Below are positions 13,301 through 60,743 of a DNA stretch of 64,000 nucleotides, in pieces (position 1 is the first letter of the stretch; the number at the start of each line of letters is the position of its first letter). The notes beneath the pieces were generated by a model that did not search any database, was not told where the DNA came from, and worked only from the letters and a program-made list of their open reading frames with translations. Origin of the DNA: Bactericera cockerelli. Its lineage: Eukaryota > Arthropoda > Insecta > Hemiptera > Triozidae. The stretch lies in assembly GCA_024516035.1 (NCBI GenBank), contig CM044961.1, positions 3,214,702 through 3,278,701 of the forward strand, read 5' to 3'. The position numbers were made by a program, and so were the translations under genes.

Positions 13301-16300
13301 ACTTCCTTACTTAGTTGATCATAAAATGTTTCTTTTTCTTCTTCTGTTTTCTCTTCAGTGGGTGCATGTGCTGAGATTATTGTGGTATTTCGAAATTTTC
13401 CTTTGATTCTCATTTTACAAATCCTTTCATTTATGTATTTATAATCCATGATGCTTGCTTTGACTTTGTTGTTGATAATAAATCCAGTTCCAAGTTGTCC
13501 TGTTCGTTTGCTGGGTCCACTGTATATAAAGCTGTAATTTCTTTTTTCGATTTTGCCCTGACCATGCCATCTTATTTCTTGAATAGCCATTATATCAATT
13601 TTGTGTTTCAACATTTCTGAGGCTACTTCTTCCATTTTCCCAGGTTGGAGTAGGGTTCTTACATTCCACGTTGCAAGTTTAAAATCCGATTTGTCATGTT
13701 TATTCCGTGATCCTAAAATCGTGTCCATGTTAGTATTCCAGTTCAGATCCAAATTTGACAGTCCAGAATTCCGAGGCGGGTTATGAGGATTCGCAACTGT
13801 AGTTTTTTGTGATATGAGGTAGTTAGCCCCATGATCAACCCCCAACCTGGAGGACCAGTCCATTGATTTTCTCCAATGGCAGAGATGACTGCTGGGACAT
13901 ACATAATGTGGTATTCTTCACACACCAATTCTGGGACGTACTTAAACGAGTGTACCAACCAGAAGTCACCAGCAATTTCCCATTAGCACGACCCAGGGGG
14001 CACCTGTGGATTAACGAACTCCACGGAGGATGGAAATTTCGCCCCCCTAATAAAGCATAATATAATAATAATAATGCACTGGGTGGGATTCGAACCCACG
14101 GATCCCTACGCTGCCTGGATTACCAGACTAGCGACTTAACCACTTGACCACCAGTATGTTACCTGCATTGCTTCAGGGGACCTGCGTTGGTCTTGGGAAG
14201 GGAGATGTGCAGACACTTGGAGTTGTCCTTATCACCCGACACTTCTATGTCTTGCAGGAAGCCTGGAAAACAAGAATAGAGCTTATTCGTACGGAAATAA
14301 CAATTTCGAAAGCCAGCGTCAACGGCACGTTGAATGCACGTTGAATGGATCACCGAAGTTGAGCAACGTCCACCGAGGTGAAGACTTCGTGATGCTGGCA
14401 TTCCGGCCCAACCCAGACTTTTCAATTCAATTTATTTACTGTGAAAAAATTCCATACATAAAGTATGTGTTTCACATTAAAGAGATTATAATCTGGGCTG
14501 GGTGAATTTAATGTGGGTAGCGGTTTGTGAGTTTCCTGCAAAGGAGGGTAACACCTCGGTCGTGATTATGAGCATGCAGTTGAAAGCGACGTTGAAAAAA
14601 AAAAAAAAAAAAACAATTTCGGAATTATAAAACGAACATGTCACCAAGGAACATTAATGCTAATTAGGCCAAACAAATAGTTAAGCCTCCGTGGCGTAAC
14701 GGTTGTGACTACTGCCCGTAGTTCAGAGATCCTGAGTTCGATTCTCCGTTGGAGCAGACTTTTCACACAAAAAATTCTGTTCCCTCCGAACACGTGAGGC
14801 TGGCATTTCCGGCTCTACTCAGACTGGGTGAGGTTAATGTGGGCAGCTGGTGCGATTCCCTTCGAATGGAGGGTAAAACCACCGTGCTGACTATCTCAAA
14901 TTAGGACGTTAAAACTAAATTAATAGAATCAAGTGGTCACAATAGATCAAATTAGGTCGCAGTGTTGATTGTAAGTGTTTCACTGAAAACCCTGCAACCA
15001 GCAGAGATAATAATAATAACGGTTGTGACTACTGCCTGTAGTCTAGAGATTTTGAGTTCGATTTCTGGTTAGAGCAGACATTTAGATTCAATGGAAATGA
15101 ATGGAGCCTAGACATTGGATCTGGGCGTCAATAGAATCCTCTCACCACCGTGATATAGGTACCTACCTCACGGACACGGAATTATTAAAGTCTGTCCCGG
15201 TAGCTCAGGGGTAAAGGCGGCAATCTGTAAATCCAGAGATACCGGAGGTCGCGGGTTCGAAACCCAGCCGGGACATGACAAGTTATGCTTCCATTAGGGA
15301 TTTTTACCACATAATAATATGTCTTGGGCTTACTGCTGCAATAATGTGACTTAAAAAGTCCGAATTGGGCAGTATAAATAAAACGATATTATATTATTAA
15401 TCACCGGATAGTTTGACAACTCCCCAGCCCATCCTAGTTTCCGAGGGCTCCACCAGAGTGATCTGCTCATCAGTTATCACCATGAAGCCTTTCTCTTCCA
15501 CCCAACCCTAGACATTAGCTCACCGGATAGTTTTCTCTTCCACCCAACCCTAGACATTAGCTCGCCGGATAGTTTGACGACTCCCCAGCCCTAGACATCA
15601 GCTCACCGGATAGTTTGACGACTCCCCAGCCCATCCTAGTTTCCGACGGCTCCACTAGAGTGATCTGCTCATCAGTTATCACCATGAAGCCTTTCTCTTC
15701 CACCCAACCCTTTCTCTTCCAGCCAACCCTAGACATTAGCTCACCGGATAGTTTTCTCTTCCACCCAACCCTAGACATTAGCTCACCCCAAGACATTAGC
15801 TCACCGGATAGTTTGACAACTCCCCAGCCCATCCAAGTTTCCGAGGGCTCCACCAGAGTGATCTGCTCATCTGTTATCACCATGAAGCCTTTCTCTTCCA
15901 CTCAACCCAAGACATTAGCTCACCAGATAGTTTTCTCTTCCACCCAACCCTTTCACTTCCACCCAACCCAAGACATTAGCTCACCGGATAGTTTGACAAC
16001 TCCCCAGCCCATCCTAGTTTCCGACGGCTCTACCAGAGTGATCTGCTCGTCAGTTATCACCCTGAAGCCTTTCTCTTCCACCCAACCCTTTCTCTTCCAC
16101 CCAACCCAAGACATTAGCTCACCGGATAGTTTGACGACTCCCCATCCCATCCTAGTTTCCGAGGGTTCCACCAGAGTGATCTATGAAGCCTTTCTCTTCC
16201 ACCCAACCCTAGACATTAGCTCACCGGATAGTTTGACGACTCCCCAGCCCATCCTAGTTTCCGACGGCTCCACTAGAGTGATCTGCTCGTCAGTTATCAC

Positions 16301-59934: not shown

Positions 59935-60743
59935 CGCGACGGGAGTCACGGCTCCGGCCTCACCGCCGTGGTGGATCCGCTGGGGGGGCTCTCCTGTCCC
60001 GAGGACCTGCCAGACGGCTGGGAGGAGCGGCGGACCTCGGCGGGGCGCCTCTACTACGTGAACCACCACACCAAGAGCACGCAGTGGGTGCGGCCCAACA
60101 AGTGAGTGGTGGGATAGAGTTGCTTTTGCTCCCCATTTATTTAATAGCTATGTGAACCACCACACCAAGAGTACGCAGTGGGTGCGGCCCAACAAGTGAG
60201 TGGTGGGATAGAGTTGCTTTGCTCCCCATTTATTTAATGGTAATGTAATGTAATATGTAATGTAATGTAATATATATTTGTACAGTATTAAATAACAAAT
60301 AATAATAATAATAATAATAATAATGCTAATAAAAAGAACCGATTTCAGTGGCTTGATCGATAAGGGAACCACCACACCAAGAGTACGCAGTGGGTGCGGC
60401 CCAACAAGTGAGTGGGATGGAATAGAATAGAATATACCTTGTTTATACTGCCGAGGTAAGACTGAAAAGTCCCTTTACTCCAGCAGTCAAACAGGTCTTG
60501 TATGTATATTTTATGGGATAAAATGGATTTTTTTTGCTCCCCATTTATTTAATAATAATAATAATGCTAATAAAAAGAACCGACCTCAGTGGCTTGATCG
60601 ATAAGGGAACCACCACACCAGAGTACGCAGTGGGTGCGGCCCAACAAGTGAGTAGTGGGATAGAGTTGCTTTTGCTCCCCATTTATTTAATAGCTATGTG
60701 AACCACCACACCAAGAGTACGCAGTGGGTGCGGCCCAACAAGT
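59935..60743 (+). repeat. More copies of the Smurf exon 5 3' part
   Basis: 59935-60101 is a long copy (RDGSHGSG, whole WW domain, donor), three bases shorter than the real exon and with no acceptor (poly-A and ACGTC precede it). Short copies end at about 60196, 60407, 60650 and 60743. Those at 60366 and 60607 begin exactly after a fragment of SINE-D (GGCTTGATCGATAAGGGAAC). Confidence 0.92.

Follow-up and report, generated by a model that had tools for sequence, protein, structure and literature searches.

Two adjacent genes of the psyllid Bactericera cockerelli raise the question of why the splice junctions of a gene should be repeated, many times over, in its own introns. Here, we focus on a stretch of 64,000 nucleotides (assembly GCA_024516035.1, contig CM044961.1, positions 3,214,702 to 3,278,701; hereafter the window), in which the genes CLEC16A and Smurf are arranged head to head. 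A sequence-only reading of this DNA had placed repeated junctions at eight or more exon edges, and had put forward either a common process that acts at exon edges or selection for decoy splice sites. In the analysis outlined below, the repeats span the exon–intron boundary, lie in direct orientation on the intron side and differ from the exon mainly at synonymous positions. We consider that they are probably minisatellites of the 'mirage' type, produced by tandem duplication, tolerated through splicing at the exon-proximal sites, and maintained by persistence and sequence exchange at a conserved exon edge.

Genes in the window

Human CLEC16A and SMURF2 probes served to locate the exons, the edges of which were set by splice sites (table 1). 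The gene names given from the sequence alone are right: Pfam matches comprise WW and C2 domains for Smurf and the FPL domain for CLEC16A, and the best PDB matches for the Smurf C2 domain are the C2 structures of SMURF1 and SMURF2. The spliced CLEC16A protein (807 residues) matches, among the best 120 of 2112 hits, a contig-derived protein at 83%, Diaphorina citri at 80%, Cyamophila at 74% and Cacopsylla at 72%. Frame trouble of a single base is encountered at two places. Smurf exon 5 contains a one-base frame break, and CLEC16A exons 9 and 10 (25345–26089) fail to join in phase at the acceptor favoured by the orthologues; in the 807-residue model, the exon 10 acceptor is an AG that lies 8 bases deeper in the exon. 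Both irregularities are likely to be residual sequence errors, and at exon 10 a shift of the acceptor beside its array is a possible alternative.

Other repetitive elements are found in the window. CLEC16A intron 12 harbours a retroelement (18077–21320), putatively BEL/Pao, whose two ends, near 18.08 and 20.99 kb, resemble each other and flank an integrase-like frame. A minus-strand open frame of 737 residues (10763–12973), presumably a LINE reverse transcriptase, lies beside CLEC16A exon 15. The left end of the window (1–1591) is a 289-base tandem array with 93% matches according to TRF, and Smurf intron 3 contains a 52-base minisatellite of about 17 units (46824–47717), which begins some 140 bases past the exon and spans no junction.

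Table 1. Genes and junction-derived repeats in the window.
Feature	Position	Strand	Details	Evidence
CLEC16A (ema)	10191..37175	−	15 exons in window; exons 1–15: 37102–37175, 36143–36271, 34341–34474, 32434–32582, 31420–31649, 29721–29925, 28620–28805, 27698–27926, 26089–26207, 25161–25353, 24314–24519, 21466–21617, 16225–16387, 14163–14262, 10191–10351	human probe mapping, splice sites, psyllid orthologues, FPL domain
Smurf, exons 1–5	38791..56075	+	38791–38851 (first codon putative), 44590–44628, 46576–46684, 53228–53361, 55827–56075	human probe mapping, splice sites, C2, WW, SMURF C2 structures
CLEC16A exon 13 donor array	15401..16284	−	true edge 16225	TRF, probe, 20-mer scan
CLEC16A exon 13 acceptor array	16638..17640	−	true edge 16387	TRF, probe, 20-mer scan
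CLEC16A exon 12 acceptor array	21567..21900	−	true edge 21617; 4 sites including the true one	TRF, probe, 20-mer scan
CLEC16A exon 11 donor array	22596..24395	−	true edge 24314; 28 donor-like sites including the true one	TRF, probe, 20-mer scan
CLEC16A exon 10 acceptor, 32-base array (marginal)	25349..25747	−	true edge 25353	TRF, by eye, 20-mer scan
CLEC16A exon 7 acceptor, single copy	28849..28943	−	copy edge 28932, true edge 28805	probe, 20-mer scan
Smurf exon 4 donor array	53362..53913	+		TRF, probe, 20-mer scan
Smurf exon 5 acceptor copies	54001..55664	+	mainly a 112-base array, 55023–55640	TRF, probe, 20-mer scan
Smurf exon 5 donor, adjacent copy	56076..56220	+	copy donor 56170	TRF, probe, 20-mer scan
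Smurf exon 5 donor, displaced copies	59934..60786	+	one including some two thirds of exon 5	probe, 20-mer scan, BLAST

Copies of splice junctions

A 60-base probe was placed on each of the 38 splice junctions and direct local copies were counted. Eight junctions have copies in the adjoining intron, 46 in total over the two genes. In CLEC16A there is one copy of the exon 7 acceptor, with 10 of the exon 11 donor, three of the exon 12 acceptor, seven of the exon 13 acceptor and eight of the exon 13 donor; in Smurf there are three of the exon 4 donor, eight of the exon 5 acceptor and six of the exon 5 donor. Both sides of the splicing reaction are affected, with four donors and four acceptors. TRF arrays overlap or adjoin the splice sites singled out from the sequence alone, and eight of the nine junctions in that list are confirmed. 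The ninth, the acceptor of CLEC16A exon 10, is marginal: its 32-base array contains the acceptor AG and has, by eye, only about 5–8 exon bases in common with the edge, the 60-base probe misses it, and a 20-mer scan finds a single copy.

In the 20-mer scan of the nine junctions, which counts a site when at least 16 of 20 bases match, 74 junction-like sites are found (nine real sites and 65 copies). The exon 11 donor of CLEC16A accounts for 27 of the copies, many of them contributed by a 33-base sub-repeat. Copy and edge have from about 10 to 101 exon bases in common, the longest 171, although copy ends are uncertain; the sequence-only estimate of 30–170 bases was roughly right. No inverted copy across any junction is present among the BLAST matches in the window. 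The statement that a whole exon is never duplicated holds narrowly, as a displaced copy near 59.94–60.10 kb carries the donor together with some two thirds of the 249-base Smurf exon 5. That the copies always lie on the intron side is true but close to a tautology, because whichever copy runs on into the remainder of the exon counts as the exon. A non-exonic motif is common to both exon 13 arrays (15490–17640) and is seen by eye also near 21.91 and 29.6 kb; the units of these arrays therefore look fused with a dispersed element.

Repeats of this kind might be created by faulty assembly. The Smurf exon 5 block recurs 4 kb away with 96.6% identity over 321 aligned bases, and the frame trouble at two places suggests that the assembly is imperfect. 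Between the copies and the true edge there are nevertheless 0–9 differences per 82 bases (3 in 20 for one short copy); the copies vary in unit length and spacing, and their differences respect codons, so that an artefact is hardly credible.

Junctions as founders of arrays

The comparison proposed with the sequence-only reading, that of junctions with random intronic points, goes against it within the window, where repeats at junctions are no commoner. Point by point, 21% of junctions (8/38) are positive, against 30% of random intronic points (915/3000) and 19% of those outside the junction-derived arrays (454/2433); circular shift tests of a junction excess give P values of 0.33–0.81. In the point-wise control, all copies within an array score separately, such that a single long array yields positive points by the hundred; of the 13,585 bases in close direct repeats, 8039 are accounted for by junction-derived arrays.

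When each array is counted once, junction-founded arrays are over-represented: they form seven of 15 TRF clusters, which were chosen by stated rules but by hand and had their unit lengths entered by hand. The expected number is 0.72 when the whole window is allowed, and rises to 1.37 and 2.13 when placement is restricted to within 1 kb and 500 bases of exons; the fraction of 100,000 draws that reach seven of 15 is 0, 0.00006 and 0.0018, respectively. With the longest TRF periods, expectations of 0.93 and 1.77 correspond to fractions of 0.00001 and 0.0004. TRF rows with a period below 25 or a score below 100 were left out, 59301–59540 and 60054–61168 were merged with 56028–56518, the exon 10 array was not scored among the junction-founded ones, and TRF does not list the exon 7 copy. 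It is very unlikely, in the light of the founder test and of the synonymous excess described below, that arrays arise anywhere in a repeat-rich genome and that some land on junctions by chance, which is what the point-wise tests on their own would favour.

An edge-specific mutational process, such as replication or repair faults where a GC-rich exon meets an AT-rich intron, would found arrays at junctions directly. It fits the founder excess (seven of 15 against 0.7–2.1 expected), and all eight positive junctions are on exons with a GC content of at least 0.5 (8/26 versus 0/12, Fisher P 0.039), a split that was devised after the data had been seen. The point-wise tests show no excess, and such a process leaves the synonymous pattern unexplained; moreover, the same founder excess is predicted if anchored arrays simply persist. 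The founder count speaks for the common process at exon edges suggested at the outset and the point-wise tests speak against it; mutation specific to edges is possible but not needed, and we regard it as unlikely.

Synonymous differences in the copies

In ordinary dead intron, changes in the exon part of a copy should ignore the genetic code. The observed changes do not. The main divergence test covers 35 of the 46 copies, ungapped, with exon indels, short matches and uncertain ends left out. Per site, the exon part shows 0.049 distinct changes at first codon positions, 0.005 at second and 0.159 at third, compared with 0.103 for the intron sequence next to it. With base and CpG context preserved, 13.9 of the 39 distinct changes are expected to be synonymous; the observed number is 31, and none of 20,000 draws is as high; CpG context is thereby ruled out as the cause. 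Relative to synonymous change, replacement is reduced to about 0.14 of expectation, (8/25.1)/(31/13.9). The excess is present among changes confined to a single copy (17/23 synonymous, 7.5 expected, P 0.0001) and under a looser cut, which takes a subset of the 46 copies plus one exon 13 donor site added by hand (35/54, 16.9 expected), and it persists when any one array is dropped.

Present translation of the copies is likewise ruled out as a general cause, since stop codons separate the copies from the true edge in eight frames (CLEC16A exons 7, 10, 11 and 12 and both sides of exon 13, Smurf exon 4 donor and exon 5 acceptor). Directly after the Smurf exon 5 donor, too, the exon frame meets a stop. 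A possible exception is the CLEC16A exon 11 array: if its copies served as separate exons, eight of the 10 long ones in intron 11 (22596–24320) would provide stop-free segments of 78 bases that run from AG to GT and keep the phase of exon 11.

These segments, together with the synonymous excess, invite the view that the copies are functional and are selected as decoy splice sites, poison exons or cassette exons. The AG or GT is intact in 73 of the 74 junction-like sites, true sites included; this retention is no test of selection on the sites, because only matches of at least 16 of 20 bases were counted. For decoys in particular, as suggested from the sequence alone, retained AG and GT are all that can be cited, and recent copying gives them equally. 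The intervening stops in the frames read argue against function, as does a phase match of 78 bases that occurs by chance one time in three. The CLEC16A proteins of psyllid orthologues have no inserts at these junctions, and amphioxus mirages are reported, in the sections of the two sources concerned, not to disturb splicing (PMC3087553, PMC3902484). We consider a function for the copies to be quite improbable. A synonymous bias that coexists with intervening stops suggests that the copies still exchange sequence with an exon edge under selection.

Proposed origin and persistence of the arrays

The mechanism that we favour can be divided into three stages: founding, tolerance and persistence. 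The founding step would be an ordinary tandem duplication over a junction, by slippage or unequal exchange. The duplication would be tolerated if splicing joins the two sites nearest the body of the exon, leaving the exon whole and the extra copies intronic; this choice of exon-proximal sites is inferred from the orthologous proteins. During persistence, the copy at the edge, kept by selection, would act as a lasting source, while the other copies drift, expand and shrink. Array and edge may swap sequence repeatedly, and the lineages that endure would be those that have passed the coding filter. We propose that this filter produces the synonymous pattern in untranslated copies, and that the conserved anchor allows an array to outlast unanchored intron arrays, giving a founder excess with no need of edge-specific mutation.

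Two observations bear on the exchange step. In the CLEC16A exon 11 array, the copies nearest the true edge are not those most similar to it; and, among the copies compared over all arrays, several carry private synonymous changes. A simple one-source history fails on these two counts, and exchange among alleles must be supposed. Against homogenisation with the edge stands amphioxus, where the boundaries of the clusters are reported to be excluded from homogenisation (PMC3087553).

We tentatively extend this proposal to a stronger form, which we think rather less probable than the mechanism itself. The edge and its intronic copies may form one exchanging pool, in which untranslated copies evolve as if coding because lasting lineages pass through the selected edge, and synonymous variants are fed back to the gene. 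In a bolder version, the copies in CLEC16A intron 11 might be in-phase cassette exons of 78 bases that are sometimes used.

Comparison with known systems

The sequence-only reading knew of no described system of this kind, and here it was mistaken. Mirage minisatellites were reportedly first described in a 2002 paper on amphioxus Adh. Amphioxus mirages occur in Adh3 and in the globins BflGb6 and BflGb9, as excerpts of the report describe, and have in common with the psyllid arrays tandem repeats across the intron–exon boundary, at donors and acceptors, on the intron side and with many AG or GT copies (PMC3087553). The BflGb6 copies are 81–100% identical, and normal splicing by RT-PCR, turnover and length instability are reported for amphioxus mirages (PMC3087553). 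Splicing and length instability were tested in amphioxus, whereas the psyllid arrays are known here from one genomic sequence. In lancelet PGBD5 and troponin C, tandem repeats of 60 and 108 bases lie over 5′ and 3′ splice sites and are thought not to disturb splicing; these are splice-site duplications as in the psyllid, but with few copies (PMC3902484). Intron gain by tandem genomic duplication is related in that the duplication carries splice signals and splicing renders it harmless (PMC3443670, PMC2891723, both in extract). The new intron then arises inside an exon, whereas in the psyllid existing introns grow.

All earlier cases of mirages that were found are cephalochordate, and among the matches listed no report of mirages outside lancelets was found in the open-licence literature. 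The psyllid host belongs to another phylum, which is a matter of range and not of mechanism. Nine arrays in two adjacent genes distinguish the psyllid from the amphioxus cases, as far as these are described in the excerpts. The synonymous excess is measured here, and a term search of the PMC3087553 text returns neither 'synonymous' nor a codon-position test of the copies. The insect host, the density of arrays and the synonymous pattern of the copies may be new. The psyllid arrays bring to the insects a little-known kind of repeat described from lancelets, with numerous cases in a pair of neighbouring genes and in a host group with several sequenced relatives. The arrays provide a natural test of how splicing passes over near-identical duplicate sites, and suggest that coding constraint can be legible in untranslated DNA, where it would mislead both gene finders and selection scans.
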